This document shows, piece by piece, positions 18,505 through 50,260 of a stretch of DNA of 64,000 bases. Source of the DNA: Paramacrobiotus metropolitanus (taxonomy: Eukaryota; Tardigrada; Eutardigrada; Parachela; Macrobiotidae). The translations under genes were made by a program, and so were the position numbers. Within the stretch, counting starts at the first letter, position 1. Each line of letters starts with the position of its first letter. Location: NCBI RefSeq assembly GCF_019649055.1, contig NW_026570270.1, positions 434,001 through 498,000 on the forward strand, in the 5' to 3' direction. The notes under the pieces are model-generated. The model saw only the letters and a list, made by a program, of their open reading frames with translations. It did no database searches and had not been told where the DNA came from.

Positions 18505-19076
18505 TGTCGTGTATAAGCGTTCACGCCGATTAAGGCTCCATGAACAATCTTTACTCTTCCACGCCTGTAATGCTCAATCGGTAGGCACTCGTACTCTCAA
18601 ACTGTAACAGAAGAACTATGGTGGAAATAAGACGAACGAATCAGGAACACGAGTCAGGAATCCCTAAACGATAGTCCAACTACAATCTCCGGTCGTAAGT
18701 CCTGTGAGGATCGGCAAGAGCTAGGACGATTGTGTCACGAGCAAACCTGTATACTAAGCGATAATCCGGGAACGACTATGCACTTCCGTAGGAACAAGTA
18801 TTGCTGCCTCTTTATCCAATTCACATCACAGTTCACAACGCTAGGAAATCGTAAATAGAAAGCAGTCTCAGAAGTAAATCTCAGACTACTGATCCCGATA
18901 TTAGAAGTAACAAGAACTTATATAGACTTCGCGTTATGACATCATATACATCGCTAGTAAAAGAGAACAGCAAATCACAGAAGAGATTGACTAGATTATC
19001 CGTTGTGTTGCAGGTGGAAGGCGGACAGTCAGCATCCAGTACGTACTCCGGCGTGTGATCCTATTCCCACACGTCA
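18505..19076 (-). repeat. 3' LTR of the giant element
   Basis: 572 bp, the same as 49325-49896 as far as I can compare. On the minus strand it runs from TGACGTGTGGG to CACGACA. A TATA motif (TCTATATAAG) lies at 18917-18926. Confidence 0.92.
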
Positions 19077-23204: not shown

Positions 23205-24579
23205 ATGTCAGCACAGCCTGTGGGGCCAACTGGAGAGCCTCTGCCATCGCCCGAAGCGGACGCGATTGCCCACTATGAATACTGGAAGGGACGAACTCGC
23301 GAATCAGTTCAGTTTGCCATGGCAGAGCCTCTACAGCCAAACGAAACCATCCGAAGCCGTCGACAATTGGCGATGCATACGGCAGCCCACGCGTGCATTC
23401 TTGAGGCTGACATTACGGGATATTATGTGGACATGTCATCTATCAAGAAATTCATTGTGGAAATGCACGATGATTTCACGGAGGAACGAGTGGATTTCTT
23501 CCTCGGCGACGCTATTAATGCCGGAATCTTGCTCAAGAAGATGTCGCGCGACGGGCGCTTCGTCCTAGAAGTCGCCGAAGAAGTCAAGAATAACCGCGAT
23601 CCAGAGACGAAGATAATCGACACAACCGGAAAATTTCGTCGAATGATTCGCGTAATCCTGTACCACGGCCGATATGCCATGTCACGGACCGAAATCCAAC
23701 ACTGGATCTGTACGTTCGACGTACAGCTGCAGGACGTAGACTACTGGCTGGACCGCGGGCTGCGCCAACTGGTTAAAAAGAAAGATATCGTCGTCGTCTA
23801 CGGGAATCTTTTCGTGGATAGTTGCATCGACCTGTGGCTACGAAGCATTCGCGGCTGCTGTCTCTGCACCACTCTAGCCCAGACCATCAGTGAGTGTTTC
23901 TGTATTTTTCGAAGTGGCATTCTTGATATTTACGCTTTACAATAGCACAACAACGCTGCCTACTGCAAATCACCTTGCCTTCCGTAATTTAACCAAAGTG
24001 ATTTAAATTGTAGATATCAAAATGGGCACTATGAAGGTGACAGTCAACGGAAGAGACACCGAACAACACGTTGCCGATTGTAGCTTCGGTTACGTGGGAC
24101 AAGACGGGGATTTGGTTGTCGATGGCGTCATGGAGCGGCTGGACGCAATCGAGCCGGCAAAGAATAATACCGCCAACGTGAATTTGGTAATCCGGGCTAG
24201 CAAAGACAGACGCATTGAGCGAGAACCAATTATCACGCTCACTCAGCTGAAAGCAATGGGCGGCCGTCCGAAATATGTTGCCCCAGAGAAAAATGCGGAT
24301 GCGAAGAAGAAGAACCAGAAGACCAAAGAGAAGGCCGAAAAGCCTGACAATGAAGTGAGCACTGCAGAACCGGATGCTATTAAAAAGCCAGACTCAATCG
24401 ACAAGTTACTGGAACAGGTTGAACGCGAAAAGGATATTATGGATAACTGCAAGGCGCTGGTAAATACGCTGAAGGCTCGAGCGACGATGGATGCTAAACA
24501 TATCGCATATATCCGTGAGGCGCTGGAACAACGTCTTGCGAACTTGAAAACTGCGAAGGAGAATCTGGATCTGGACTAA
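23205..24579 (+). CDS. Spliced antisense gene in the giant element, 416 aa, possible winged-helix protein
   Basis: Exon 1 is 23205-23889 and exon 2 is 24014-24579. The 124-bp intron has a GTGAGT donor and a TTGTAG acceptor, and the phase-1 join keeps the frame open. Exon 1 shows two candidate winged-helix segments. Residues about 75-125 (KKFIVEMHDDF..DAINAGILLK..GRFVL) have the helix-helix-wing pattern seen in linker-histone H15 folds; residues about 145-205 (FRRMIRVILYHG..VVVYGNLFVD) look similar. Exon 2 adds a Lys-rich stretch and a C-terminal coiled coil. Its orientation is opposite to gag-pol, and its intron would be lost if the genomic RNA were spliced in its sense, so antisense placement fits survival through retrotransposition. 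It could be a captured host gene. Confidence 0.6.
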
Positions 24580-25006
24580 CAGCAGTTGTAATATATCTGA
24601 TGATTTCCCGCGGCTGTCTGATAATTTTGTTCTAAAATTCGGCCGACTGTTATTTCTTCCGTTTAATCTCACTCTTGTTGGTTTAATAATTCTCATTCAT
24701 ACAGATTCTCGTATAGTCGTTAATTATGCTGGTCGGACAGATCTTAATTTGAGATTAATTTTGGATTTATGTAAGGCTCTTAATAACCGGAATAAAATCA
24801 GTGTAGGAGAATACGCAGTCGCAGCTGCAGTCAATTCCGATATAGAATAGCCAATTAACAGAGTAAAATCAAATATCACACCGTAAGCGTGAATCAAACG
24901 CTAAAAACAATTTTAATATTCCATCCTGGGAATAAAGTTACAGAGAACACCAAAGAAAGGAAAAAAGAATGAAGAGAAACTCGTAAAGCTTTGCAAAATT
25001 TGTATT
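24580..25006. other. Spacer before the tRNA-like array
   Basis: No coding region is supportable. An A-rich stretch near 24955-24970 may correspond to the tail motif of the first tRNA-like unit. Confidence 0.35.
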
Positions 25007-25083
25007 CACGCAGGATTGAACCTTGCATCTAGGTGGACAACTAAATCCTGCTCTTGCCCATACGCTAGCATGGCTATACCACA
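25007..25083 (-). ncRNA. tRNA-like unit T1 (weakest of the array)
   Basis: On the minus strand a B-box-like AGGTTCAATCCT lies about 55 nt after an A-box-like TAGCCATGCTAG. The T-stem pairs poorly and no good acceptor stem is visible. It is included because its spacing (284 bp) and strand match the seven better units. Confidence 0.35.
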
Positions 25084-25290
25084 TTTCACTTTTAATTTGG
25101 CAATCACTAGAGGCGCTGTACTACGAAAATTCACAATATAATAAAAATTCACCACTGAAGCAGCTGATAAGTTTTAAGATTTCACCGTCACCGTGGCTAT
25201 AAAATTCATTCCGTCAGCGGCAATATTTTCACAATAACAGTAATAAATTCACAAAAGCGAAAAAGATAAGGTTTCAGAAATTGCATATTA

Positions 25291-25370
25291 ATTGTAGGGG
25301 ACTCGAACCCGCAACCTTCATTGCACCTGTTGTTGTGGTTCAACAGTTCAGTGCACTACGCCACTACAAT
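25291..25370 (-). ncRNA. tRNA-like unit T2
   Basis: On the minus strand the ends pair as a 7-bp acceptor-like stem (ATTGTAG with CTACAAT). The A box is TGGCGTAGTGC and the B box is GGTTCGAGTCC. A CTGTTG/CAACAG stem sits at the anticodon-arm position with an 8-nt loop. The T-stem is only 3 bp (GGG/CCC), so it is not a canonical tRNA. A T-run follows about 30 nt downstream (minus strand). Confidence 0.65.
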
Positions 25371-25505
25371 CTGCGGAGTTAAACTTTAACTTCGCTCGTC
25401 GGGAGTGACCGTAAAATTAGCAATCTCGAAGCCAACATAATGCTGCATATTAATATAAAAAAAAAAAATGTAAAACCGAAAAAGAAGGTTTTAAATTAAG
25501 GTCAC

Positions 25506-25602
25506 TGCTATGCGCCAGGAAAATTCCTGGCGCATAGTCAATTTGCTATGCGCCAGGAAAATTCCTGGCGCATAGTCAGTTTGCTATGCGCCCAGAAATT
25601 TG
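25506..25602 (+). repeat. Left TIR of the MULE
   Basis: Two 30-bp near-palindromes at 25508-25537 and 25546-25575, then the half copy GCTATGCGCCCAGAAATTT. It matches the reverse complement of 29423-29517. Confidence 0.9.
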
Positions 25603-25886
25603 CAGCTAAAAATAAAACAAAATTGCTTAAAATCGTTGAAATCGTTCGATACACCACAGTAAGGCCTATTTCAGGTAGACAACCATAGCAACACTAAAGA
25701 ATTATCACAGAAAGTACAGTACGTATTATTACAGGTACTTACAAGTACTAACTACAAGAAATGATATACTTGTACAGAAATAAAATACAAGTACTTTCCT
25801 GCTCTGGAAATCGAAGAACTTGGTAAACAATCTTACTTCCTCACTAAAACTGATATTGAAATTTCGCAAATCTGATACTAATAATT

Positions 25887-28800
25887 GTGATATTAATATC
25901 TGATCCTCCATTGCTGCAAATGGCAGAAAACGCTCCAGAGCCAAATGCAGAGCTGCAGCTAAAATCCTTCGAAGAGCTTGAAAACTATATGAAGCAATAT
26001 ATGAAGCAAACCCATCAAATGTTTGTCAAAGGACGACGGGTCGACGCTTTGAAAGCCACCGATAAGCTCAAAGAAAGTCACAAGTATTATCTCATTCAAT
26101 ACGAATGCATTCATTATGGAGAATCTCGCACACATCGCCCAGGGGAAATCCCAAAAGCCCGTCCAAATCAAACATCTCTGAAGCTAGGTTGTCCCGTGAC
26201 CCTTGTGGCAAAACTGATCAAAACGCCCACGCTAGCCTATTTTACGTTTACGAACGCACCCAACGCTGATGAGCAACCCCTGACAGCGAAACATAATCAT
26301 CCATTATCCTCTGAAATTTTTGCGTTTTACCCGAAAAATCGCCAATTGACCCCAGAAGAAGTAGCAAGGGTTAATGATATGCTAAAATCAGGCATGCCAC
26401 CCACGGCGATTGCTCGAACGGTCAATTTAATCCGCGATACGGAGGGAAGAGTTATTTCGAAAAACATTTCCAATGTCCAAACTAAACTTCGAGCAGATTC
26501 AAGGAAAGGTAAAACTGAGGAGCAGGTCATGGAAGACGTGATGGCCAAAATCCGCGCACAAGATCCCGAAGCCGTTGTCACAGCAGTCACTGACAAGGAC
26601 AAAAACCTGCTGTGCATCTACATCCAAACATCCGAGATGAAAGACCTTGTTAGCAAATTCCCGGAAGTTTTGTTTGTTGACGGGACTTACCGCATAAATA
26701 TCGAAAGGTGATTATATCAGTTAGTCAATTACTTGTACATATAGTAATGTGCATATATGTGTAATGTGATACAAGGTTTTCTGTTTACATACGTGATGTG
26801 GGCCATACTGGTTATGGACAACAATGGATTTGGACGCTGTGCTGCAATTGGGTTTCTTGCAAACGAAAAAGCGGAGACGATGAGAACGTTTTTTGAAACA
26901 TTTGGCGAGCAGAACGACCTGGCTAAACTGTCAGCTGTTTTCTGTGATAAAGATCTGAAAAATATAGAAATCCTCGACGATGTCTTCAATCCAGCTGCTG
27001 TACTCCTTTGCGTTTTCCACACCATGAAAGCAGTTAAAACTTGGATTGCGCATTTAAAACTGTTTGCGCCAGAGAAGCAGCAAATACTATCGTTATTCAA
27101 AAAACTCGTCTACGCTGTGGACGAGACCCAGTTTAAAGCAAAGGAAGCGGATCTACGTAACGATTGTCCAGACGAATTTTGGGACTATTATGAAGCTAAT
27201 TGGTCTACATGTCAGGCACGGTGGGCGTTACATCTGCGAAAGCACTTGCGATTACTCGGGAACAATACTACCAACAGAATTGAACGCTTTTTCGCAATGA
27301 TTAAAGCGGTAATGAGAGGACAAGGACGAAGAACGCCGAAGAAAATGCATCTTTCTGAATGCATCGACGTCGTGATGGCTGCCGTTGAGAGTAAAACTAC
27401 ATTGTCCAGTTTTGCTGAGTTCACCAATCAAGCCAAAAAATTGGTCATGCATGACTTTCCCGATATCAAAACCGGATCAAAAGTTGGCACACAGTTGACA
27501 AACTTTGCAGCGCTCATTGTCAAAAAACAGTTTCAACTGTTCACCAATGAGAAGTATGTTGTCGCCGGTGAGACGGATGCATCCTTCGAAGTCCCACATG
27601 AAAAAAGCGGGAAGCAGTATCAAGTGGTGATAGCTGCGGAAACAGGAGAACACACGTGTAACTGCTATGTATCCTGTGTCTTCGGACTTCCGTGTCGGCA
27701 TATATTTCACGTAAGGAAATTCCGCAAGGCTGATTGGTTCTCTTCTGGCGATTGTCTGATCAGATGGCACCGAAATTCGATAGAATCTAACGGTGAAGTT
27801 GAGCTTTATCGGGAAATTGTAGAAGATGCAATTAAAGGAACAATGGACGAGGACATGGAAGATATTGCTGGAGAAGCGGCCGCTGTCGAAAAGAAAGCGT
27901 CACTGAGACCAGAGCAGAAGTTTCATGACTCATTTCGGCACTTCAGTCGTGATTTTGCTTCGGTTCTGTCGTCACAGAGCGGCCCACGGTATGCCTACAT
28001 TATGTCTGAGCTTGAAAAGGCCTATAAGCTCCTTGACCAAGGATACTTGTTTGTGGTTCAGCCATTAGAGAAGTTTACGCCTAAATCCACGCAAACGGAA
28101 CAAGTGGCGAGCACGGTTACACCAGAGCGTCCCACTTCAACCTCAAAGCGGGCATCGAAGCCGTTACTTTCACCAGATAATGTGGCTGTATCTGGAGAAG
28201 TCGCAAGCAAGATTACTAAGCGCTCTAAGCGGACTATATCGCCAACACCATCACCCGAACACGCGCCGACTGGCCAGGCGGTAAAACGACTAAGCGAGGC
28301 GCCAGTTGTTTCCGAACCGCAGTTCCGCCTGATGAGAGCCAGTGTCCGCGAAAGAGGCAGACCACCAGGTACTGGCCTCGGTTTCTATCAGACACAAGGC
28401 TCGCAAGCAGCCGGTACTCCAACGGAACCACCAGTCAAACATATGTCAAAAAGGAGAAAAACGATGGGTGACCTCCCTGCTACGCAGATACCAGAGCAAA
28501 GGGAAGCGGCATCTTTGTTAGGAGAAGACGAGCTTCAAACAGTTAAGCGCGTGGGAGAAAGGTGGGCTATTTGTCGAATCGATATTGTCTATTTGGGAAA
28601 AATTGGATATCTGTTGGATGTGAGAGTGCTAGACGTGATTTGCTTTCTATCTCGTGGCCTCTTACGCAATAACGGCCTTACTGGAATGCTGGCGCTCGGT
28701 TGGGTTTTAAAGTGTCACCGGCCATACCAAGTTGTCCAGCAAACACGGGCAGATTTGAAAAACGGTCTTACTCTCATCCAACCACTTTACGATCCAGTAG

Positions 28801-29279
28801 GGCGTCATTTTGTTACCCTAAAAGCATCCTGGCAGCCACATCCAAAAATTGCCGTTTTATGCACACTTGGATGGGAACCGACGGATTGGGTCAAGCTACA
28901 AACGTGGACACTGTGCAGTGAAGGTAATGAAATGCACATTGAGTGCCCGTCTGTTCCGCAACAAGGTGGTGGATCAAACAATTGTGGTGTTTATGGAGCA
29001 GCCTTTTGCGTTGACCACGTTCTCTCTAAAAACCCAGGTGTCGAAACTGCCAATTATGTAGAAGAGTTCAAATTTCGAAGCTGGTTAAATGAAATTATTG
29101 AAACAGAAACCCTGAAGAAACCGCCACGAAAGCGAGGTGTCAACAATCACCCGAGAACCGAACCAAAAAAGAAAGTAGTAGTTGTCACATCGAAAGAGAT
29201 CGCTGAAATCAGAAAGCGTAGAAATATTCCGGAAAAAGTCCGTCTCGACGAAATAGACGGAGTGCCGCACATTGCATAA
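25887..29279 (+). CDS. MULE transposase with SWIM finger and Ulp1-like C-terminal domain (two frames)
   Basis: Segment 1 (25887-26708) has a GCM/FLYWCH-like zinc fold (YECIHYG..LGCPV..KHNHPLS) and ends at the first catalytic Asp motif VDGTYRIN. Segment 2 (26757-29279, read from about 26776) continues with a DNNGFGR strand, CDKDLKNIEIL (second Asp), CVFHTMK, NRIERFFAMIK (catalytic Glu) and the SWIM finger CNC..CRH at residues 301-315 of that frame. The C-terminal third carries H684 in GRHFVTL and QQGGGSNNCG with C743, the His..Gln..Cys pattern of Ulp1/C48 cysteine peptidases. A 68-bp GT-AG intron (26708-26775) is possible, but joining there leaves the frames one base out of register, so a 1-bp lesion or sequencing error is likely. 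Confidence 0.8.
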
Positions 29280-29422
29280 GATCTTGTTTTGCAGCCTGTC
29301 TAATTTTCTGATCGCGAGTGTTTAGTGCATTTCATTTGAAAGAAGTTATGGTGGAATTGTAATACTTACTTCATACAACGTTTTTAACAACTTGAAACAA
29401 TAATATTTCGTTTTTGTTGGCG

Positions 29423-29517
29423 AATTTCTGGGCGCATAGCAAACCGACTATGCGCCAGGGAATTTCCTGGCGCACAGCAAATTGACTATGCGCCAGAAAT
29501 TTTCCTGGCGCATAGCA
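29423..29517 (-). repeat. Right TIR of the MULE
   Basis: Inverted copy of the left TIR with a few substitutions (for example CGCACAG in place of CGCATAG). Confidence 0.9.
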
Positions 29518-29540
29518 CTTTCGTTAAATTAAACGGATTA

Positions 29541-29618
29541 ACTTTAGGGATTGGAACTCTAGACTTGCGAGAAGCGGGTCGGTATGGATTCTCAGTCTAG
29601 CCACTACGCCACAAGGTG
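29541..29618 (-). ncRNA. tRNA-like unit T3
   Basis: On the minus strand the A box is TGGCGTAGTGG, a full match to the eukaryotic consensus, and the B box is AGTTCCAATCC. Acceptor pairing is weak (CCTT with AAAG). The MULE lies between this unit and its downstream tail motif at 25476-25491. Confidence 0.6.
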
Positions 29619-29771
29619 CTCTACGGTAAAGCCGAGTTAGAATTGACACCGGAAGCGCCATGTCGTGTATATTTAACCAGACTGTAATAAGGCAGCAAAC
29701 CATTAAGGCTTGATCCCACAAGGGTACAAAAATATAGGGCAGGAAAAATGTAGTTTTTAAACATGCAGCAT

Positions 29772-29855
29772 GCAAGCCTGAGATTAAGACTAGCCGTTTA
29801 GGAGGTAGTACATGAGGCGAATGGCCGTCATTCATAGCCACTGAACTACAAAGTC
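29772..29855 (-). ncRNA. tRNA-like unit T4
   Basis: On the minus strand the A box TAGTTCAGTGG is perfect. The B-box position reads AGTCTTAATCTC and is degenerate. Spacing to its neighbours is 231 and 261 bp. A T-run (CATTTTTCCTGC) follows on the minus strand. Confidence 0.5.
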
Positions 29856-30032
29856 ATTCGAATGCAGACAGACAGACGGCCAAGCGCAATGTCAACCCTT
29901 AAGTGTGCATACAATTTTACGCCCAGCTCTTTGAGTTTAATTCTGACATTCTGGAAACTATTGTCAATACTTTTCCAAGGACGAAAACAAAAATATAAAA
30001 CGAAAAAAGTAAGTTTCTCAAAATTGCTAATT

Positions 30033-30115
30033 AGCTGTAAGGGACTCGAACCCGCAACCGTTTCATTTCCCCGTTGCTGTAGTTCAACGGTGCAAAGCAC
30101 TATACTACGCTGTTC
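30033..30115 (-). ncRNA. tRNA-like unit T5
   Basis: On the minus strand the A box is TAGTATAGTGC and the B box is GGTTCGAGTCC. The block GGTTGCGGGTTCGAGTCCC is shared with T2, so these two are the closest relatives. The ends pair as AGC-GTA with TACAGCT (one bulge) next to a 3-bp GGG/CCC T-stem. The tail motif follows at 30001-30016. Confidence 0.65.
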
Positions 30116-30242
30116 TACGACAGTAATTTTTGAATTTGCTCATCGGAAACGATCGTAAAATTACCACGGGCAGCGGTAATGCATATTTGATGCTACTACA
30201 ACAAAATAAAATCCAAAAAGAAGGTTTAAAGAAATATGCATT

Positions 30243-30324
30243 ACTTGTAGGGTTTTCGAACCCAAGGCCCTAAATTGACTGAGTCGTAGCGGAGACAAGA
30301 CGGACAACCACTACACTACGAAGT
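30243..30324 (-). ncRNA. tRNA-like unit T6
   Basis: On the minus strand the A box is TAGTGTAGTGG and the B box is GGTTCGAAAACC. The acceptor-like stem pairs ACTTCGTA with TACAAGT with one bulged base, again abutting a 3-bp GGG/CCC T-stem. The tail motif CTTCTTTTTGG is downstream at about 30213-30224. Confidence 0.65.
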
Positions 30325-30483
30325 CTCACGGTAAAAGAACAAAATGTGAACGGTAAGGGCTGTGCAAATGTGCACCGCTCGTTGAAAACCAATAGGAAAT
30401 TAACGGTATCACACCGAATGTGTAAGTACAGCCAAATGCAAAAACTTAAACACGAAAAAGAAGGTTTTATGAAACGCTTTTAA

Positions 30484-30572
30484 ACTTTTAGGGATTGGAA
30501 CCCAGGACCAGCAACAGGTAAACGGATTCGCCTGGTATTGTCCACTTTACTGGACCACTCGACTACAAGAGT
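30484..30572 (-). ncRNA. tRNA-like unit T7
   Basis: On the minus strand the A box TAGTCGAGTGG and B box GGTTCCAATCC are both good matches. ACT..TT pairs with AAAAGT at the ends and the T-stem is 3 bp. A hairpin GTCCAGTAAAGTGGAC sits in the D/anticodon region. The tail motif AACCTTCTTTTTCG is at about 30453-30467. Confidence 0.65.
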
Positions 30573-30730
30573 CATCGACAAAAATAATACTAATAACACA
30601 GCTTGCAGGGTTCATTTTGTCACCTCTCAACAGCGATTCACCCAATATTCCCCATGTTAAATCCCGCTAATAAAAATATAACGATTCATGAGATAAAAAC
30701 CAAAAAGGAAGGACATTTACAAAATCGCAT

Positions 30731-30813
30731 TTTTATGTGGACTGGAACCTCCGACCTCCAATGACGAAGCAACGGAAGCCTCTACTATACTAGCGGGGCC
30801 GCTCTACACAAAA
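30731..30813 (-). ncRNA. tRNA-like unit T8
   Basis: On the minus strand the ends form an 8-bp stem (TTTTGTGT with ACATAAAA, one G-U pair). The A box is TAGTATAGTAG and the B box is GGTTCCAGTCC. The tail motif CCTTCCTTTTTGG is at about 30700-30713. This is the unit nearest the accessory ORF block. Confidence 0.6.
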
Positions 30814-31086
30814 TCCTGTTTAACGGAAGCGCCGAAGGCGTACACTGACAACAACCCATAGTGAATGTGCCTGTGGCCTACCAACCCAAGTGACCAGCTG
30901 CATGAAAACCAGTACGGCATCCCAACGAAAGTGTAGTCTCGTGCGGTCGTGCGTTACACTGTTCAGAATTTACCAACAAACGGCACGGACGGTGACTACT
31001 TAGACTTTATTTATTTCGCAACTCGCATAGTAACCAAACGTCAAAAGTGTCTTGTGGAACGAAACGCAAAAACCATAATGTACCAA
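30814..31086. other. Spacer between the tRNA-like array and the duplicated block
   Basis: No gene or further tRNA-like unit is convincing here. Confidence 0.4.
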
Positions 31087-31356
31087 CTAAACGGTGTACA
31101 ACACGTGTGGTGAAACGCAATCTGAACAGAGGAGAAAACTAATCGTAAAACAATAAAGGCAAAAGATAAAACGATACACCAAATCTACAATATGAGATCT
31201 CAGAAAAGAGAGACATGAGCGTACGAATAAAAGAATGAAAGCAAAAGAGATCATACGCGTGTAGTGATGGATCTCGAGCATTTCGAACAAAACACCAGAG
31301 ATTCTAGCGATAGTGGGCAAAATCCACCTCCAAAAGTCCACCAAATGATGCCACAT
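31087..31356 (-). CDS. Small hydrophobic ORF, 89 aa, stop-start coupled to the preceding ORF
   Basis: About two thirds of the residues are hydrophobic, with candidate membrane helices near residues 8-25, 35-50 and 60-78. Its ATG overlaps the TAA of the MSPPAN ORF as TAATG (31358-31354), an arrangement used for termination-reinitiation in some viruses and non-LTR retrotransposons. It could be a small membrane protein. No envelope-type glycoprotein features (signal cleavage, furin site, ectodomain) are visible. Confidence 0.45.
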   Translation of the reverse strand: MWHHLVDFWRWILPTIARISGVLFEMLEIHHYTRMISFAFILLFVRSCLSFLRSHIVDLVYRFIFCLYCFTISFLLCSDCVSPHVLYTV

Positions 31357-31538
31357 TAAGGAGTCTTAGGCGGGAGCTTAGACACGGCCTCCTTGACAGC
31401 AATTCTTCCACGCTCGAAACGTTGCTGAGCTTCTGTGCGTTCAGCCATCTTCTGCGCCACTATCTCCGTCCATGCCGTCACACGGGCTTCCAGCACCTGC
31501 TTGGCCGCTTTCTTCTTCTCATTAGCCGGCGGTGACAT
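31356..31538 (-). CDS. MSPPAN ORF, unit 1: 60-aa Lys/Glu-rich helical protein
   Basis: The ATG at 31538 gives MSPPANEKKKAAKQVLEARV, and the rest (TAWTEIVAQKMAERTEAQQRF..) should form one amphipathic helix or coiled coil. The MSPPA start and its position before a PYNPD-type ORF parallel ORF C at 22137-22577. The longer upstream frame (to 31781) lacks a plausible protein-like composition, so the internal ATG is preferred. Its stop overlaps the next ATG. Confidence 0.45.
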   Translation of the reverse strand: MSPPANEKKKAAKQVLEARVTAWTEIVAQKMAERTEAQQRFERGRIAVKEAVSKLPPKTP

Positions 31539-32137
31539 AGTGATTAAGAGATAGAGACTATATCTCGAATTCCTCTGAGCAAAGTTTACGCGGCTAAATT
31601 TAGCAGAATAAAACACAGAAAACTGCAAACGATTGAATTTTAACAAAATTACCAACTGGGATACATTCAGATTACGATTCTGACAACCGCCCACACACGG
31701 CGACCGCATACTTCGCAACCAGCGAAGTCCATCAAATGAGAGTGCCACCCGGCGGTAGGCTTGCCATTCCTTGTTTACCACACAGACTACCCTTGTTTGT
31801 AATTTTGAGACTGTTTTAATTTGTGTTACAATTTACCGAAAGCTATAAAAATTACAGCGGTACCAGAAAAATTATTGGGCTACCGCATAATTCACAGAAA
31901 ACGAAAGCCCTAACGATCAGGCTTATCACAACTGTTGAGAGGAGCAAACAGCGCTCATTTAGACATTAAAAACGCAGCAGCTAGAAAATTATACGCGATC
32001 AGCCGCGCCACGCTGAGACATCATTGAAAACGCACAAAAAGAGCAGAAAACAGCAAGAGATTTAAACAAAAGGGCCCATACAGTTTAGATCATCCCGCCG
32101 TGCTTTAGAAATACAAACGGCCGATCGGCAAAAATCC

Positions 32138-32929
32138 TCACTTCCAATAGTTGTGGGGAATGCCACGCAGAACATGGCGCTGCCCAGCGATGTGCTTGCG
32201 CTTCTTCTTCGGTTTCTGGTCAGGACCGAAATTTTCGTCCACCCAGAGCATGTCCACAGGCAAGACTTTGACTGGATCCGGAAAATCCAGCTTGTGCTCT
32301 GCCCACCAGTCATCCAAATCTGAATCTGGCTCTTTCCAATCTTCAAGATTGCCAGATCCCCAGATATTTGGAACAGGCTCGTCATCATCCAAGGTGTACA
32401 AAATACGGCCACACGAACCCGGGCCATTATTCTCACACTCCACACAACAAAGCTCTTCTTCCATCACACGCTTGTTGTGTTCCAGCATGCGCTGATGACG
32501 CTCACGTGGAGTTTCCGGCGGGTTAAATAAGGATGGCAAGCCAAATTCCTTTCGAAGGCGTTCAGATGCTTCACGAAGGATAGGAGTGTCGGGATACAAA
32601 ATGAAACCGATCCTCAAGTAATACATCTGCATTTCCGACGCGCGAACTTTCTCGATCTCTAAAGCCACCTGAGCCTCAAAATCCAATGGCTCGGGTTCTG
32701 TAAAATTCAAGGCCATAATTTCGGAATGAGAGAGTTTACAAAGCTCCGAAATAGAAATATACGGGCCGTCCAAAGAACGCCAAAAGTACACAAACTCGGA
32801 AATGTGTTCCTGGTTCGCCAGAACATACGCAACAGAATCAGAAAATCTGACAAACTTACGGCGCTTCTTTTCATCTTGCTCAGCACAAATCATACGCCCG
32901 CGCTCGGATTTATAAAATTCCATCTCCAT
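32138..32929 (-). CDS. MEMEF ORF, unit 1: 263-aa acidic protein with basic C-terminus
   Basis: I recognise no family. The first 130 residues look globular and helical (FSDSVAYVLANQEHISEFVYF). A Cys cluster follows (CCVEC..GSCGR near residues 157-170) and might bind a metal. Then comes an acidic, Trp-rich stretch (DLDDWWAEHKLDFPDP) and a KPKKKRKH patch near residue 240 that fits a nuclear localisation signal. The copy in unit 2 differs by a 1-base indel in the last codons, which changes the C-terminus. Confidence 0.6.
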   Translation of the reverse strand: MEMEFYKSERGRMICAEQDEKKRRKFVRFSDSVAYVLANQEHISEFVYFWRSLDGPYISISELCKLSHSEIMALNFTEPEPLDFEAQVALEIEKVRASEMQMYYLRIGFILYPDTPILREASERLRKEFGLPSLFNPPETPRERHQRMLEHNKRVMEEELCCVECENNGPGSCGRILYTLDDDEPVPNIWGSGNLEDWKEPDSDLDDWWAEHKLDFPDPVKVLPVDMLWVDENFGPDQKPKKKRKHIAGQRHVLRGIPHNYWK

Positions 32930-33482
32930 TTTAAAAGAAAAGTGAAGAGTTTAAACCAGAGAGGCTATGAATAAGGTGAAAAGAGAAAGCTGCAAATCTG
33001 AACATGAAACGACTGTGCAGACCAAAAACAGCTGTGTGCACTCAAACTGCGACTGCCCTAACATTCGACTACATGCGGGCGGTTGATACAGTGACATAAT
33101 TGTTTACATGTTCAAACGTGAAGACTTCGCATTTTTAGACTGTCATTTGTGTGTTAAAATCGTTTTCTGTCGGATTATCTGCCAAATTCTGATTTTAAAC
33201 AACCGGAGAAATCTGATTTAAACCGATTTATTTCTGAACAGCCAAATCTGTGCTCCAGAGAATGAATGGTAAGCCACTTCATAGGAAAGCTGCACATAGC
33301 ACAGGCTGTAACAATAACGCTAAAGAGCTAATTGTAAACGGAAAACAGGTTCTGTACAAGATTCTATGAACTTGGAGTAAAATGCCCAACACTAAAGATA
33401 ATGCTCCTCCGTAAAACGAAAAATACAGAAGCTAAAATAAGAGAGCACTAAAACAGGGCTGTGATTGCAGGGGAAATCCTCA

Positions 33483-33698
33483 TTACACCGCAGCGCCCAT
33501 ATTGTCATCATCGTCATCACGGCGTGGGCGATGGCGTTTGGCGATCGAAGCATCCAATTTACCCGGACCCCGCTTCTCCTGTCCTTCATGTAACAGCCAA
33601 CGAGTTTGTTGCAATTGCTGCTGCTGTTGGGATGACGAGCGCGGATCCGCTGCATTCAGACGATCGAAATAGCGCTGCTCTGCTTCCAAGCGGTGATC
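33483..33698 (-). CDS. In-frame extension of the PYNPD ORF beyond an amber stop, unit 1
   Basis: Directly after the TAG of the PYNPD ORF the same frame stays open for about 70 codons: a Gln run, then RHRPRRDDDDD and the end. Its basic/acidic low-complexity nature matches the tail of paralogue ORF B, which has no stop at this point. Either the stop is read through or it has truncated the protein in this lineage. The same TAG is present in unit 2. Confidence 0.45.
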   Translation of the reverse strand, partial: DHRLEAEQRYFDRLNAADPRSSSQQQQQLQQTRWLLHEGQEKRGPGKLDASIAKRHRPRRDDDDDNMGAAV

Positions 33699-34331
33699 CT
33701 AGTCAATATTGGAAACCAATTCCTCAATATGTTGATTATACGCGTCCACGAGCGTAACAACGGCACCATGGTCTCCCGTTTCCCCGGGGACATAATCCAA
33801 CGCAGTGAGAAACTCGACGGGATTGCGCACCACATTGATGCCGAAGTTCCGACGGAGTTCGCAAACAATTTGCCCGATGAGCCATCCTTGGCGGAAGTCC
33901 ACCCGCAGGTAACGCAACAATGCATAGTGTGCGTCCTTTGACAAATCTAGAGTGTGAACAAAGCGGTTGTATTTATCCAACGTCATCTCCGATCCATTAT
34001 GGTAAATCTTGCCGCGGAAACGCAATCGAGTTTCGGGATGCAGCTCCACATAATCGGTGTCCGGATTGTAGGGACAATGAATCAAACCAGAAGGGGGAAT
34101 ATAACTCTTTCCTCCACGAGCGTAGTCGTGCGGAGACGGACGAAGGCCACAATCCACCATGCAATGGGACCATTCAAATGTTGGTTCAGGCCATCCAACA
34201 TGAGGATCGGGATACATTGGCGGCTGAACATCGGGCAGGACATCTGCCAAAACCTGCACTGAATCTTCCGAGGAACTCGTGGTATCCTCATGCTGATAAG
34301 AAGGATGTGACGGCACTTTCGGACGATGCAT
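33699..34331 (-). CDS. PYNPD ORF, unit 1: 210 aa
   Basis: The start is the ATG at 34331 (MHRPKVPSHPSYQHED). After a Ser/Asp-rich N-terminus comes GLIHCPYNPDTDY, then a helical domain (YALLRYLRVDFRQGWLIGQI..PVEFLTALDYV) related to ORF B. The duplication junction places the hydrophobic ORF of unit 2 in frame upstream, so 33699-34604 is one 301-codon frame; I take that fusion as a by-product of the duplication. Function unknown. Confidence 0.6.
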   Translation of the reverse strand: MHRPKVPSHPSYQHEDTTSSSEDSVQVLADVLPDVQPPMYPDPHVGWPEPTFEWSHCMVDCGLRPSPHDYARGGKSYIPPSGLIHCPYNPDTDYVELHPETRLRFRGKIYHNGSEMTLDKYNRFVHTLDLSKDAHYALLRYLRVDFRQGWLIGQIVCELRRNFGINVVRNPVEFLTALDYVPGETGDHGAVVTLVDAYNQHIEELVSNID

Positions 34332-34604
34332 TGCAGTGATATACAGTAACACGTGTGGTGAAACGCAATCTGAACAGAGGAGAAAACTAATCGTAAAACA
34401 ATAAAGGCAAAAGATAAAACGATACACCAAATCTACAATATGAGATCTCAGAAAAGAGAGACATGAGCGTACGAATAAAAGAATGAAAGCAAAAGAGATC
34501 ATACGCGTGTAGTGATGGATCTCGAGCATTTCGAACAAAACACCAGAGATTCTAGCGATAGTGGGCAAAATCCACCTCCAAAAGTCCACCAAATGATGCC
34601 ACAT
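34332..34604 (-). CDS. Small hydrophobic ORF, unit 2 (fused in frame to the PYNPD ORF)
   Basis: Same sequence as the 89-aa ORF at 31087-31356 up to SPHVL. It then runs through the duplication junction into the PYNPD ORF without a stop. TAATG coupling to the MSPPAN ORF is preserved at 34606-34602. Confidence 0.45.
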
Positions 34605-34786
34605 TAAGGAGTCTTAGGCGGGAGCTTAGACACGGCCTCCTTGACAGCAATTCTTCCACGCTCGAAACGTTGCTGAGCTTCTGTGCGTTCAGCCATCTTC
34701 TGCGCCACTATCTCCGTCCATGCCGTCACACGGGCTTCCAGCACCTGCTTGGCCGCTTTCTTCTTCTCATTAGCCGGCGGTGACAT
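34604..34786 (-). CDS. MSPPAN ORF, unit 2
   Basis: 60 codons with the same product as 31356-31538, including the TAATG overlap with the following ORF. Confidence 0.45.
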   Translation of the reverse strand: MSPPANEKKKAAKQVLEARVTAWTEIVAQKMAERTEAQQRFERGRIAVKEAVSKLPPKTP

Positions 34787-35332
34787 AGTGATTAAGAGAT
34801 AGAGACTATATCTCGAATTCCTCTGAGCAAAGTTTACGCGGCTAAATTTAGCAGAATAAAACACAGAAAACTGCAAACGATTGAATTTTAACAAAATTAC
34901 CAACTGGGATACATTCAGATTACGATTCTGACAACCGCCCACACACGGCGACCGCATACTTCGCAACCAGCGAAGTCCATCAAATGAGAGTGCCACCCGG
35001 CGGTAGGCTTGCCATTCCTTGTTTACCACACAGACTACCCTTGTTTGTAATTTTGAGACTGTTTTAATTTGTGTTACAATTTACCGAAAGCTATAAAAAT
35101 TACAGCGGTACCAGAAAAATTATTGGGCTACCGCATAATTCACAGAAAACGAAAGCCCTAACGATCAGGCTTATCACAACTGTTGAGAGGAGCAAACAGC
35201 GCTCATTTAGACATTAAAAACGCAGCAGCTAGAAAATTATACGCGATCAGCCGCGCCACGCTGAGACATCATTGAAAACGCACAAAAAGAGCAGAAAACA
35301 GCAAGAGATTTAAACAAAAGGGCCCATACAGT

Positions 35333-36175
35333 TTAGATCATCCCGCCGTGCTTTAGAAATACAAACGGCCGATCGGCAAAATCCTCACTTCCAATAGTTG
35401 TGGGAATGCCACGCAGAACATGGCGCTGCCCAGCGATGTGCTTGCGCTTCTTCTTCGGTTTCTGGTCAGGACCGAAATCTTCGTCCACCCAGAGCATGTC
35501 CACAGGCAAGACTTTGACTGGATCCGGAAAATCCAGCTTGTGCTCTGCCCACCAGTCATCCAAATCTGAATCTGGCTCTTTCCAATCTTCAAGATTGCCA
35601 GATCCCCAGATATTTGGAACAGGCTCGTCATCATCCAAGGTGTACAAAATACGGCCACACGAACCCGGGCCATTATTCTCACACTCCACACAACAAAGCT
35701 CTTCTTCCATCACACGCTTGTTGTGTTCCAGCATGCGCTGATGACGCTCACGTGGAGTTTCCGGCGGGTTAAATAAGGATGGCAAGCCAAATTCCTTTCG
35801 AAGGCGTTCAGATGCTTCACGAAGGATAGGAGTGTCGGGATACAAAATGAAACCGATCCTCAAGTAATACATCTGCATTTCCGACGCGCGAACTTTCTCG
35901 ATCTCTAAAGCCACCTGAGCCTCAAAATCCAATGGCTCGGGTTCTGTAAAATTCAAGGCCATAATTTCGGAATGAGAGAGTTTACAAAGCTCCGAAATAG
36001 AAATATACGGGCCGTCCAAAGAACGCCAAAAGTACACAAACTCGGAAATGTGTTCCTGGTTCGCCAGAACATACGCAACAGAATCAGAAAATCTGACAAA
36101 CTTACGGCGCTTCTTTTCATCTTGCTCAGCACAAATCATACGCCCGCGCTCGGATTTATAAAATTCCATCTCCAT
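35333..36175 (-). CDS. MEMEF ORF, unit 2: 280 aa
   Basis: Near-identical to 32138-32929 over about 257 residues, apart from one N/D change before the KPKKKRKH patch. One G fewer at about 35401-35404 (TGGGAATG against TGGGGAATG in unit 1) shifts the frame, so this copy ends 17 residues later with a different tail. One of the two ends must be derived or a sequencing error. Confidence 0.6.
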   Translation of the reverse strand: MEMEFYKSERGRMICAEQDEKKRRKFVRFSDSVAYVLANQEHISEFVYFWRSLDGPYISISELCKLSHSEIMALNFTEPEPLDFEAQVALEIEKVRASEMQMYYLRIGFILYPDTPILREASERLRKEFGLPSLFNPPETPRERHQRMLEHNKRVMEEELCCVECENNGPGSCGRILYTLDDDEPVPNIWGSGNLEDWKEPDSDLDDWWAEHKLDFPDPVKVLPVDMLWVDEDFGPDQKPKKKRKHIAGQRHVLRGIPTTIGSEDFADRPFVFLKHGGMI

Positions 36176-36728
36176 TTTAAAAGAAAAGTGAAGAGTTTAA
36201 ACCAGAGAGGCTATGAATAAGGTGAAAAGAGAAAGCTGCAAATCTGAACATGAAACGACTGTGCAGACCAAAAACAGCTGTGTGCACTCAAACTGCGACT
36301 GCCCTAACATTCGACTACATGCGGGCGGTTGATACAGTGACATAATTGTTTACATGTTCAAACGTGAAGACTTCGCATTTTTAGACTGTCATTTGTGTGT
36401 TAAAATCGTTTTCTGTCGGATTATCTGCCAAATTCTGATTTTAAACAACCGGAGAAATCTGATTTAAACCGATTTATTTCTGAACAGCCAAATCTGTGCT
36501 CCAGAGAATGAATGGTAAGCCACTTCATAGGAAAGCTGCACATAGCACAGGCTGTAACAATAACGCTAAAGAGCTAATTGTAAACGGAAAACAGGTTCTG
36601 TACAAGATTCTATGAACTTGGAGTAAAATGCCCAACACTAAAGATAATGCTCCTCCGTAAAACGAAAAATACAGAAGCTAAAATAAGAGAGCACTAAAAC
36701 AGGGCTGTTATTGCAGGGGAAATCCTCA

Positions 36729-36944
36729 TTACACCGCAGCGCCCATATTATCATCATCGTCATCACGGCGTGGGCGATGGCGTTTGGCGATCGAAGCATC
36801 CAATTTACCCGGACCCCGCTTCTCCTGTCCTTCATGTAACAGCCAACGAGTTTGTTGCAATTGCTGCTGCTGTTGGGATGACGAGCGCGGATCCGCTGCA
36901 TTCAGACGATCGAAATAGCGCTGCTCTGCTTCCAAGCGGTGATC
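36729..36944 (-). CDS. In-frame extension beyond the amber stop, unit 2
   Basis: Same arrangement as 33483-33698: TAG, then an open Gln-rich and Arg/Asp-rich stretch in the same frame. Confidence 0.45.
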   Translation of the reverse strand, partial: DHRLEAEQRYFDRLNAADPRSSSQQQQQLQQTRWLLHEGQEKRGPGKLDASIAKRHRPRRDDDDDNMGAAV

Positions 36945-37577
36945 CTAGTCAATATTGGAAACCAATTCCTCAATATGTTGATTATACGCGTCCACGAGCG
37001 TAACAACGGCACCATGGTCTCCCGTTTCCCCGGGGACATAATCCAACGCAGTGAGAAACTCGACGGGATTGCGCACCACATTGATGCCGAAGTTCCGACG
37101 GAGTTCGCAAACAATTTGCCCGATGAGCCATCCTTGGCGGAAGTCCACCCGCAGGTAACGCAACAATGCATAGTGTGCGTCCTTTGACAAATCTAGAGTG
37201 TGAACAAAGCGGTTGTATTTATCCAACGTCATCTCCGATCCATTATGGTAAATCTTGCCGCGGAAACGCAATCGAGTTTCGGGATGCAGCTCCACATAAT
37301 CGGTGTCCGGATTGTAGGGATAATGAATCAAACCAGAAGGGGGAATATAACTCTTTCCTCCACGAGCGTAGTCGTGCGGAGACGGACGAAGGCCACAATC
37401 CACCATGCGATGGGACCATTCAAATGTTGGTTCAGGCCATCCAACATGAGGATCGGGATACATTGGCGGCTGAACATCGGGCAGGACATCTGCCAAAACC
37501 TGCACTGAATCTTCCGAGGAACTCGTGGTATCCTCATGCTGATAAGAAGGATGTGACGGCACTTTCGGACGATGCAT
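36945..37577 (-). CDS. PYNPD ORF, unit 2: 210 aa
   Basis: Same protein as 33699-34331 with a few substitutions (HRM for HCM, HYP for HCP). Here only a short open stretch, not the hydrophobic ORF, precedes the ATG, so this copy shows the arrangement before the duplication. It is the first accessory ORF after gag-pol. Confidence 0.6.
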   Translation of the reverse strand: MHRPKVPSHPSYQHEDTTSSSEDSVQVLADVLPDVQPPMYPDPHVGWPEPTFEWSHRMVDCGLRPSPHDYARGGKSYIPPSGLIHYPYNPDTDYVELHPETRLRFRGKIYHNGSEMTLDKYNRFVHTLDLSKDAHYALLRYLRVDFRQGWLIGQIVCELRRNFGINVVRNPVEFLTALDYVPGETGDHGAVVTLVDAYNQHIEELVSNID

Positions 37578-37594
37578 TGCAGTGATATACAGTA

Positions 37595-37924
37595 ATTTTA
37601 ACCACAAATTCGGTGTATAAAAAGAGCAAACTCAGACGAGACTGAAGGCGAATTGACGACTAATGCTGATCTTACAGGTATGAATATCATTTGCGGCCAG
37701 CTATCAGCAGCTTTCCTACAGCTGTTTGCAGAAAGAGCAACGAACGCTACTACGTCACCGCGGACTGTCCAATGGCGACTATACACACTCAATCTGTACG
37801 TACAAGCGACTTTGGGAATTTTCCAGACAGCTTGGGTGCATTGAAGGTAAAATTTCAATTCTTAAAATTCAAAAATAAAATAAAATAAAATAAATGTACA
37901 AATTTACACGGCCGCTCAGCTTGT
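37595..37924. other. Spacer between gag-pol and the accessory block
   Basis: No gene. An AAATAAAATAAAATAAAATA run lies at about 37875-37893, just beyond the gag-pol stop in element orientation. Confidence 0.45.
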
Positions 37925-40900
37925 TTAATCGTTATTGCATAAGGTACAGATTTTTATGAAATTAACACAATCACGCCTCATTTCCGGCCAGAAGAGACGA
38001 AGACTTCTATACAAGTAATCATACGGCGTAATATTACTGTTATACTTATGCAACAACCGCCGATTTACAGACTCAACTAAGATTTTACGCCACTGATAAG
38101 GAATGAGAATTTTAGGTACCCTTTTTGCAATGTCCTGTTTTTCTCCATAATGGCAAATAATGCCGTTTACTTTTAGAACTAAAGGAAGATGCCAGGCCGC
38201 GTATGCAGTTTCCTCAAGAGTGCAATCTCCATCAACAACGGCGTCCCACAACATCAAGTCACTACACTCCATTTGTCGATACTTCCAGAATTCCTGCTTA
38301 TCAAGGGCGTCATCGGATATTACGCCTTGTGGCCAGAACTGCTCAATTGGACGTGCCCAAGCCGGAACTGGAAGAATTCTGTCTTCCACAACTGCTAAAG
38401 AAGTTTTTGCTGGCTGCGCCGGCCCAATCTCCATTGCGTTACAGGTAATTGACGAAGTATGACTGGCCAATGGTTCAGCTGGTTCGGATTGACCCCCTCC
38501 CGGCTGGGATACATTCAGAATAGCCGTTTCTCTATCATTTGTGGCCATGCGCTTTTTAGCATCAGCCGACGGGTCTCTTTTACGCTTTTTGTCGTTCATC
38601 TGGTTTACAAGTCTTTCCACAGGTTTCACCACACGCCCGGAGCGGGTTTTAAGCAATGGAACCGCTTCCATCTGATTATCCAGATATTCCGCATACTCAG
38701 CATCAAGGCGCGACGATGCTGAATCGACAGACGGGATCACCGGCGGCGGCGCGGGCGCCTCAACTAGTTCATCGGGGCATTCCTTCTCCACACAGTCAAG
38801 CAACTTCGGTAAGTGCTCATCTTGTAGAATAGTATCGACATCGCGAAAGTTATACGGCTTTAGACGGCTGACATGGACTGTGTCAGTTTTGACGTTCCCA
38901 CGCCTGCTACTCTTAACTACGTAATGCACTGGCCCTGACTGACGAACGATTTCCCATCCAGCAGTCCAACGGGGCATAAGGGATGGATTCTTCCCCACTT
39001 TTCTGTGAAGTACGTACACCAGAACCTGATCTCCCGGTTTATACGATACATGCGAAATATTTGCATCGTATCGAATTTTGTCCTTAAGTTTATGGCGAAA
39101 CTCTTCTGCATTCACCAAGTCCAAGGCCTCACCAAGGCCACGCTGCATCTGCTGTACATATACGTGAGCGGGAATTACGAAATCCTCTTCAAATGGCAAG
39201 AAGTTATTTATCGGTAAGCGCATCTCGGTGCCGTGCATCATGAAGAATGGTGAACGGCCCGTTCGCTCCACAACCTTACTGTTAAAGGCAGCACAGAGTG
39301 CTGGGAGAAATATATCCCAGTCACTTTGCTGCTCATTAACATACTTCGCCAACGCCTTTTTGATTTCCCCTACACGTTTTTCAACAAGACCGTCACCCTG
39401 CTGGTGGCCTGACGCCGTCGGTGCGTGAGCAACACCAGCGAGAGCGAGAAGCTCCCGAAACATTTCCGACATAAAATTACTGCCACGGTCTGAAGTGATG
39501 TGTACAGGCATACCAAAGACTGTCAGTATGCGGCGATAAAAGAACAACGCCAATGTGGCAGCGTCATTTCTCTCGACTGCCTCAGCCACAATGTATTTGC
39601 TCCCGTAATCTACTGCAATAATTATATTTTTGTTTCCAGATTCCGTCGTTGGGAGGGCCGGGGCAACGTCAATTGCCCAAACTAACCGAGGAGGAACGGT
39701 CGGGTTTGACTGGAGAGCGCCGGCCGGTGCCGTAGCGAGAGGATTTTGTGCAAGGCACGCCGGGCAAGAGGCACAATAACTTTTAACAGACTCGAACATA
39801 CGGGGCCAATAAAAATACTTGTACATCCTTTTATAGGTGGCCAGGACGCCCAAATGTGCCGCTAACGGAGAATCATGGTTATCCTGAAGGAACTGAAGCC
39901 GCCAGTGAACAGGTACATACATGCAGTAATAGATCTTCCGGTTTAATTCGAACTTGTAGTATACAACGCCCTGTTTCACTACAAATTTGTTTAGGTGTAA
40001 TTTCTCGTGCTCTGACATTTTTTCCTTTTTGTTTTCTAGGAGCAATCGCCATCGGACGATCCGGGCATCGCGAGACTGCTCCTCAGCCCAATGAGAGGCT
40101 TTATCATCCGTAATCAACTTTTGAACTTTATCGGCGTCGAAGGCTTGCATATCTTCTTGAGAGACTGCCTTCACCTCGGCTGACATCATTTCGAACCGGA
40201 TATCCACATAATCTCTCTCCAAAACCGCAAAGCAACATTCGATCATCGCTGCATCGCCGGCGAAAGGGTAAGTTTGCCTATAGTCAAATTCAATATCCGA
40301 GTCATCCGAGTCGGGTTCCGGTTGCTCTCCTGGATTTCTGCTCAAGGCGTCAGCAATAACGTTCTCTTTGCCAGGTATGTGAACAGGTTTAGTGTTAAAT
40401 TGCTGGATATATAGCGCCCAGCGCCCGAGGCGGCCAGCGGCATCGCGCATATTATTGAGAAAGACCAGCGCCTGGTGATCAGTTTGGACTTCGAACTGGT
40501 AGTCCGATAAGTAGTGTTTCCATTTTTTAAGAGCACAAATAACCGCATAAGCTTCAAGCTCAGTAGGGAAATACAGTCTTTTCTGTGTTTCAGTCAACTT
40601 GCGGCTTAGGTATGCAATAGGACGCCAGTTGGTCGGCACATCCGTCGGTTTGTCCCTGGAGCATTGCATGAGAACAGCCCCCACAGCGATTGTGCTGGCG
40701 TCCACGATAACTCGCGACAAAGCCTCTGGATCATAACGGGCCAAGACCGGCGCCGTTACCAAGGCCTCCTTTAATTGTTCCACAGCCCTACACTGATCAG
40801 TTCCCCACTCAAAGGTAACTTTTTTAGGAATTAACTTTTGAAGCGGCTCCGCGATTTCTTGAAAGTTTTTAATAAATTGACGATAATATCCTACCATGCC

Positions 40901-48533: not shown

Positions 48534-49307
48534 CTTACTTTTTGTTTTGAATTAACCTTTGCGGTTAATTAAAATACCAAAACAGCAGCGATTGTGCTAC
48601 TGATTTCTGACGAGTATCGTTATTGCGATTGTGCAATAATTCCCAAAAACTCACAAGCAATCCTCCTTTTAGGTTTGAATTGTTCAGTGGGTTTAGACAC
48701 AGCCGACCTTTGCGGTTCGACTGTAACAAATTCCTAAAATTACGCTGCTGCACTTTGCGTGCTGTCGTAATTTTAAGATTCACAGGTCAATCACCGTTTG
48801 CCGGTGTTTACCTTGTTCACGGTCAACTCTCTAGCTGCTGATTTTGGCTACCGCTTGCGGCTTGCCTTTATCAGTCTTGCTGGAGATCGTTATCTCACCT
48901 GGCCACTGACAATGGCTCGGTGCTTACTATCTGCTCTATCTGCAGGCCAGGTACACTGACACTGCAGATTACGCTTTATTCGCCGCGGTTACTGCTTTGC
49001 GCAGACAACCCGGAAATTACCCACAGACACCAATTAATTACACAGCCGACCTTTAAGGTTTCGACTGTTTAATCCTACGGTCCAACTTAATTAAATTTAA
49101 TTTAATTGGCGAGGAAGCTCACCAGTGAGGAAGCTCACAATTGCGAGGAAGCTCGCTAAAAATAAATTAACTAGGCCAGATCAGGAACGCTGACCTCCTT
49201 CGGCGTACCTTTGCGGTTCGACGCCTTTCAAAACGGACCACTTTTACCAATAAATTACCATCAAACTTTTCCACCATCAATTTTCTGCTACATCGGGAAA
49301 ATTAAAA
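48534..49307 (-). promoter_or_regulatory. Structured leader: repeated GCAAA stem-loops between PBS and gag
   Basis: In the RNA sense, at least four stem-loops share the apical form C-C(or CG)-GCAAA-GG: 48551-48569 (7-bp ATTAACC stem, 18 nt before the ATG), 48700-48723, 48792-48806 (CACCG/CGGTG) and 49202-49225. A fifth, at 49043-49067, has the same CAG.CGA stem but an altered loop. Such repeats near the gag start suggest a packaging, dimerisation or translation signal. This role is inferred. Confidence 0.55.
49108..49156 (-). promoter_or_regulatory. Three tandem GAG-CUUC-CUC hairpins in the leader
   Basis: GAGGAAGCTC occurs three times with different but complementary flanks: GGCGAG/CTCACC (one mismatch), GTGAG/CTCAC (49125-49138) and GCGAG/CTCGC (49143-49156). 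In the RNA sense each is a hairpin with a CUUC loop. Flank changes that keep pairing argue for selection on structure. Confidence 0.6.
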
Positions 49308-49324
49308 GACACCGGTGGGCGCCA
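49308..49324 (-). promoter_or_regulatory. Primer-binding site of the giant element
   Basis: On the minus strand TGGCGCCCACCGGTGTC starts immediately after the CA end of the 5' LTR. TGG complements the CCA tail of a tRNA, and TGGCGCC is a common PBS start. The cognate tRNA would end in GGGCGCCA; I cannot identify it from the window. Confidence 0.8.
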
Positions 49325-49896: not shown

Positions 49897-50164
49897 CGGT
49901 TTTATCAACGCAGAACACGTCAAAATTTTTCAAGAGGCGTGCGTCGTGTCAAAGTGGTTAGTGATTATGCAGTTTGTCTGGGTAGAAAGCCTGGAATCGT
50001 TCCGGATATTGCGCCGTAATCGAGACAGACTATATTCCATTGGCAGTTGTCGTCGTCTGGCGGGCATTAAGGACTGACACAGGCCTAGGCCTGGAAATGA
50101 CGGCTTCCAGCATAATTCTAGAAAACAAAGTATTTTCACCGCATCTGATTCCTCGTCGATTGCT

Positions 50165-50173
50165 TATTTAAAG
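50165..50173 (+). promoter_or_regulatory. TATA-like box of array gene 4
   Basis: TATTTAAAG preceded by GCATCTGATTCCTCGTCGA. The giant element ends 268 bp upstream, leaving this core promoter intact. Confidence 0.65.
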
Positions 50174-50260
50174 GCGAGAACAGTAGGGAATCACAACATG
50201 CATATCTTCCATTTTTCTTCAACTTACCCTTCAACTTCAGCATACCTCACCACGTTCAAT

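Follow-up and report, generated by a model that had tools for sequence, protein, structure and literature searches.

What is specified by a series of RNA polymerase III (Pol III) promoter-like sequences lying inside a long terminal repeat (LTR) retrotransposon? The question is raised by a 64,000-nucleotide stretch of the genome of the tardigrade Paramacrobiotus metropolitanus (contig NW_026570270.1, positions 434,001 to 498,000; the whole of this stretch is called the window, and its own numbering is used), in which an earlier note made from the sequence alone had described about eight tRNA-like units within a Ty3/gypsy-type element. From a comparison of copies across the genome we conclude, with a probability of roughly 0.72, that the array comprises eight compact type-2 Pol III genes of the element, whose non-coding RNAs would act in trans for it.

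The units of the array

The units, all on the minus strand, are as follows.

T1, 30702-30805, minus: A box 30782-30792, B box 30739-30749, run of five T 30702-30706
T2, 30455-30578, minus: A box 30555-30565, B box 30492-30502 (52 nt between), run of five T 30455-30459
T3, 30215-30331, minus: A box 30308-30318, B box 30252-30262, run of five T 30215-30219
T4, 30004-30120, minus: A box 30097-30107, perfect B box 30042-30052, T-run 30003-30008; paralogue of T7
T5, 29744-29861, minus: A box 29838-29848, no recognisable B box, run of five T 29744-29748
T6, 5′ part, 29534-29624, minus: A box 29601-29611, B box 29548-29558; separated from its terminator in this copy by a MULE
T6, 3′ part, 25479-25490, minus: terminator of five T 25479-25483; joined to T6 in MULE-free copies
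T7, 25260-25376, minus: A box 25353-25363, perfect B box 25299-25309, run of five T 25260-25264
T8, 24962-25094, minus: two competing A boxes, 25071-25081 or 25057-25067, B box 25012-25022, T-run 24961-24966

The region 24901-25490 plus 29534-30900 was scanned with consensus strings for the A box (TRGYNNARNGG) and B box (GGTTCRANTCC), allowing up to three mismatches in total, with 500 dinucleotide shuffles as control. Seven units were found on the minus strand, against a shuffle mean of 0.13 (at most 2 in any one shuffle), and none on the opposite strand of the array region. The remaining 58 kb of the window gave three, two on the minus strand and one on the plus. Requiring in addition a run of five T 25-50 nt past the B box left six units, with a shuffle mean of 0.02 and none elsewhere in the window; the count is six rather than seven because the MULE DNA transposon, inserted between the B box and terminator of T6, separates the two. 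The suggestion that each of eight units carries both boxes, at scores above shuffled sequence, is thus borne out for seven of them and fails for T5, which has an A box only.

Perfect B boxes in the window are limited to T4 and T7. Spacing from A box to A box, measured in three MULE-free copies, is 209-283 bp, in agreement with the 210-285 bp stated earlier for the window with the MULE removed. Five units (T2, T3, T4, T6 and T7) can be aligned over their whole length, trailer included, and T4 and T7 are 80% identical over 109 nt, so that the array has grown at least in part by duplication.

The array in other copies of the element

A search of the genome (169.8 Mb in 533 contigs) for the array in other copies of the element, as had been proposed, found it at a minimum of 43 places. 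These come from DNA searches with both parts of the array, 40 candidates being scored per search and the lists merged by eye. A 35-nt core of T8 is present at 42 places (36 exact, five with one mismatch, one with two and none with three) and a 37-nt core of T1 at 39 (24 exact, 11 with one mismatch and four with two); the reversed controls gave none. The broader pattern of a B box, 30-37 nt and CTTTTT occurs at 327 places genome-wide, compared with 64 for its reversed control.

The array lies at a regular position behind the reverse transcriptase (RT): in 31 of 35 pairs the T1 core follows the end of RT by 6.2-7.0 kb. Pairing of RT with arrays used 98 of 105 RT rows, excluding six second pieces of places already listed and C69:540007, where the array is on the opposite strand. 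Pattern matches were taken from 40 listed places, among the first of the 327 and reaching as far as contig C37. Among 49 RT places of at least 95% identity, 32 have the T1 or T8 core downstream, five have the pattern only and 12 have neither; two of these 12 (C23:1426183 and C11:6260) lie less than 7 kb from where their contig ends, and the remaining ten are found beyond C37, outside the pattern list. On contigs up to C37, 11 of 13 such places show signs of the array. At lower identity the counts are one pattern match in three places (92-94%), one core, one pattern and ten with neither in 12 (86-90%), one core in three (83-84%) and three cores in 31 (50-78%). In the last three (C456, C96 and C122) the RT stretch is interrupted by 4 to 9 stops, so that they look like decayed copies. 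At least one Ty3/gypsy RT clade thus carries the array as a fixed component.

Arrays with the same layout of B box and terminator, and without the T1 and T8 cores (up to three mismatches), are found on contigs C1, C3, C34 and C36. These are subfamilies with different unit sequences.

We note that the units are not members of an array of short interspersed elements (SINEs), as they were not found alone; all 42 T8-core places lie at arrays located by the DNA searches when compared by eye, for searches with the T1 and T8 cores at up to three mismatches.

Conservation and termination

Rates and T-runs were analysed in 27 MULE-free arrays (L009-L035) of the 43, leaving out the copy in the window and partial arrays. 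Alignment columns with less than 60% occupancy, or 80% for rates and identity, were dropped. Apart from the T-runs, mean column identity is highest in the A boxes (0.965), followed by the B boxes (0.941) and the rest of the units (0.933), and falls to 0.881 in the trailers, 0.853 in the spacers and 0.78 in the flanks. Relative rates from a partitioned tree, in which the T6 trailer was counted as spacer, are 0.47 for units, 0.94 for trailers, 1.12 for spacers and 1.47-1.59 for flanks. The units evolve at 0.41 of the spacer rate. When the unit mask was slid along the array, 2 of 1811 shifts were equally good. This constraint, like the architecture and recurrence of the array, is directly observed; its simplest reading is purifying selection during spread of the element.

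The region between the boxes has an identity of 0.89-0.995 according to the unit, close to that of the boxes, and in T8 46 of its 48 columns are invariant in the 27 copies. Conservation of the interbox region to about the level of the boxes points to a function as RNA, not to protein binding alone.

The T-runs are the most conserved class of all, with an identity of 0.98 (0.981) over 36 columns in seven units, T6 not included. They lie 31-37 nt past the B box in T1-T4 and T7, and 44 nt in T8; by our arithmetic that of T6 is about 31 nt past. Inside the units, trailers included, there are 2 runs of five or more T in 23,882 nt, compared with 155 in 22,220 nt of spacer, and one of the two may be the T6 terminator, whose coordinate was slightly off in this count. 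The T fraction is 0.26 in units and 0.38 in spacers, from which an approximately sixfold difference would be expected, against about 70-fold seen. The host tRNA genes provide a comparison. In the 34 examined, from 60 listed, a run of four or more T starts within 10 nt in every case, and one of five or more in 33. The units likewise end at T-runs of the kind found in host Pol III genes, and earlier runs of five T are rare, although runs of four T occur within several units.

Boxes, T-runs at a near-fixed distance from the B box and internal avoidance of five-T runs are together the marks of working type-2 Pol III genes. Comparison of copies lends strong support to the proposal of a battery of Pol III units in the element: the units change slowly, the T-runs are conserved and internal five-T runs are avoided.

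The units might instead serve as DNA, binding TFIIIC as an insulator or an opener of chromatin, with any RNAs as by-products. tRNA genes can serve as insulators, the B boxes are clustered in one direction and the set of units differs between copies. TFIIIC binding, however, requires neither T-runs at a near-fixed distance, nor a lack of internal five-T runs, nor an interbox region conserved about like the boxes, and we consider this explanation unlikely.

Evidence that weighs against Pol III genes under selection

Several observations run counter to the proposal that these are Pol III genes kept by selection. The first concerns polymorphism. Shared polymorphic sites have a frequency of 0.169 in units, 0.376 in spacers and 0.578 in flanks, and singletons 0.221, 0.395 and 0.386, respectively; singletons are therefore also depleted in units, with a unit to spacer ratio of 0.56 compared with 0.45 for shared sites. 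The contrast of shared sites with singletons is significant against flanks (p = 2.5e-5) and not against spacers (Fisher p = 0.14). A lower mutation rate in the units, instead of selection, may account for this.

Secondly, the signals are not uniformly intact. The B box of T8 is two positions off consensus in all 27 copies, as it is in the window, and that of T1 in 9 of 27, while T5 has none. The internal runs of four T count here too, and in 6 of the 27 copies T3 has only a run of four T. Several copies have no recognisable T2, T3 or T4; T3 gave no blastn match in L055, L060, L064 and L067-L069.

Thirdly, ten sequences (the eight units of L009, with T4 and T7 of the window) showed no significant folding over dinucleotide shuffles, with z between -0.68 and 1.41. 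Covariation is slight, a single compensatory pair (T-A/C-G) being seen by eye in a hairpin of the paralogues T4 and T7. Since there is no significant fold and little covariation, a structural RNA function is not established.

Relation to tRNA genes and to viral Pol III genes

The units resemble host tRNA genes in having A and B boxes and terminators of five T. They differ from them in matching no tRNA model, and in placing the T-run 31-37 nt past the B box. ARAGORN found no tRNA gene in the window or in any of the 27 array loci, while the control, a host tRNA-Lys(CTT) gene (L090), was detected; Rfam gave no tRNA match at E ≤ 10 in 24500-32000 of the window or in 15 of the 27 loci. Pairing resembling an acceptor stem in T7 of the window is not kept in other copies, as judged by eye. 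The term tRNA-like can therefore be retained for the promoter boxes and not for the units as a whole. The best similarity scores to host tRNAs, which include the boxes, are 29-36, compared with 30-39 for the best of 60 shuffles, and only T1, T3, T4 and T7 exceed all of their own shuffles. Descent from particular host tRNAs is not established.

Clusters of Pol III microRNA (miRNA) genes are described in bovine leukaemia virus (BLV) and foamy viruses; BLV has five compact genes, in which boxes resembling A and B are accompanied by poly-T terminators (PMC4267658). The likeness is that of LTR retroelements carrying several independent Pol III genes. The viral genes encode hairpin pre-miRNAs and have the terminator between the A and B boxes, whereas the tardigrade units have the B box before the T-run, are longer, form no stable hairpin and belong to an invertebrate Ty3/gypsy element. 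The units could, since there too a retroelement carries a number of compact Pol III genes (PMC4267658), be precursors of miRNA-like small RNAs. This is improbable, as the ten sequences fold no better than their shuffles and none has the stable hairpin precursor of the BLV and foamy virus genes. Matches to Rfam miRNA families were to the MULE terminal repeats (25508-25599 and 29448-29516), not to the units, and all were below gathering scores.

The TMERs of the herpesvirus MHV68 provide a further comparison, since one virus there encodes eight Pol III RNAs with tRNA-like parts (PMC4838037). Those RNAs are of 200-250 nt and have two downstream pre-miRNA hairpins. The tardigrade units, by contrast, have a predicted length of about 100-130 nt and lack hairpins. 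They are not of the TMER type, given this lack and the 31-37 nt (44 in T8) from B box to T-run.

The carrier element, its primer-binding site and its internal copy

The element and its associated features are listed below.

3′ LTR, 18505-19076, minus: target-site duplication (TSD) ACCG outside
MULE, 25500-29523, plus: inserted in the array
Copy of LTR end and start of primer-binding site (PBS), 29645-29671, minus: within the T5-T6 spacer
gag-pol open reading frame (ORF), 37925-48256, minus: 3443 amino acids
PBS, 49308-49324, minus: complementary to host tRNA-Lys(CTT)
5′ LTR, 49325-49896, minus: identical to the 3′ LTR

The element spans 31 kb in the window, with the units between its LTRs. Because the two LTRs are identical and flanked by ACCG, the minus strand is the gag-pol sense, and all of the units lie in that sense as had been stated. 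In the gag-pol ORF, Pfam identifies the Ty3/gypsy-type domains of protease, RT, RNase H and integrase; the LTRs, TSD, PBS and order of domains are those of this class. The closest named relatives of the RT in a protein search have at most 41% identity. The MULE within the array is flanked by a 9-bp TSD, TTAAATTAA, at 25491-25499 and 29524-29532.

The first 13 nt of the PBS are complementary to the 3′ end of host tRNA-Lys(CTT) plus CCA, and the units are accordingly rejected as the source of the element's own primer. Tiny as the chance is that they are self-encoded primers of reverse transcription, tRNA-like promoters do lie within an LTR element here, with an internal PBS-like site. The fit of the PBS to a host tRNA stands against this, as does complementarity between units and element that is within the shuffle range (best 25.7 bits; for the shuffles the 95% point is also 25.7 and the highest score 27.6).

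The internal site repeats the LTR end and PBS start over 27 nt. Its 17-nt core is present in all 27 aligned arrays, and a 23-nt form in 25. The joint LTR-end and PBS pattern has 68 matches genome-wide, nine with the internal (27-nt) spacing. Within copy L013 no clear LTR-end copy was found upstream of the other units, the best having 14 of 25 matches (T8, shuffle p = 0.05). The conserved copy beside T6 may be part of the same system as the units.

Helenus, Ajax and Cassandra (TRIMp3) are also LTR elements with sequences like Pol III genes (PMC10886601); they are short and non-autonomous, and carry the sequence in their LTRs, where it is thought to drive synthesis of the template RNA. The tardigrade element differs in coding for gag-pol, in its length and in having eight internal units. 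It is very improbable that the array is a decaying remnant left by the capture of at least one Helenus-like element (a tRNA-like sequence in the LTR, then a PBS) and its amplification in tandem. The tRNA-like sequence in Helenus LTRs (PMC10886601) and the copy between T5 and T6 fit such an origin, which may explain how the array arose; the units, however, are conserved rather than decaying, and those of L013 lack a clear upstream LTR end.

The earlier note knew of no LTR element with such an array. That statement is narrowed by the Pol III miRNA clusters of BLV and foamy viruses (PMC4267658) and by the LTRs of Helenus and Cassandra (PMC10886601). No comparable array in an LTR retrotransposon came up in searches of open-access PMC papers, which is not proof of absence.

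Other features of the locus were observed. A 3.25-kb tandem duplication inside the element (31100-37595, 99.8% identity) doubles two accessory ORFs, which have no Pfam match; the 301-amino-acid one has no relatives in a protein search. A 7.35-kb tandem duplication (47401-62100, 99.8% identity) covers the 5′ end of the element and its flank, and may be an assembly artefact. An antisense gene, by our reading apparently of two exons, lies within the element at 23205-24579 on the plus strand. Its first ORF (23205-23945, plus) is 95% identical, across 93% of its length, to an uncharacterised protein annotated in P. metropolitanus (P0095), which makes the host this tardigrade or a very near relative; tblastn finds matches to the ORF in 35 of 66 loci that partly overlap. 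The nematode SL1 sequence and COX1, used as further markers of the host, had no match.

Proposed function and significance

The units are likely to be Pol III genes kept for the benefit of the element. We infer their transcription, the ends of the RNAs, the benefit and the mode of action. Each unit would be transcribed from its internal A and B boxes (A box only in T5), starting a few nucleotides before the A box and ending at the T-run that follows the B box after 31-37 nt (44 nt in T8), to give an unprocessed RNA of about 100-130 nt. Since every unit contains its own promoter, an integrated copy could yield the RNAs even while the LTR promoter is silent, and with the genomic RNA left uncut. 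By analogy with viral Pol III RNAs, they would act in trans as non-coding RNAs serving the element, most probably by binding host proteins. It is possible, and we offer it tentatively, that eight different constrained RNAs, in subfamily-specific versions, have trans effects on the host or on replication of the element, as in a conflict with host factors.

To our knowledge, retroelements with Pol III genes have rarely been shown, the cases being the miRNA genes of a few vertebrate retroviruses and the promoter-like LTR sequences of tiny elements. The dozens of natural copies make the array testable. Clusters of A and B boxes overlooked by tRNA finders may be genuine genes and, if our interpretation is true, Pol III RNAs without hairpins can be part of the standard equipment of a retrotransposon.

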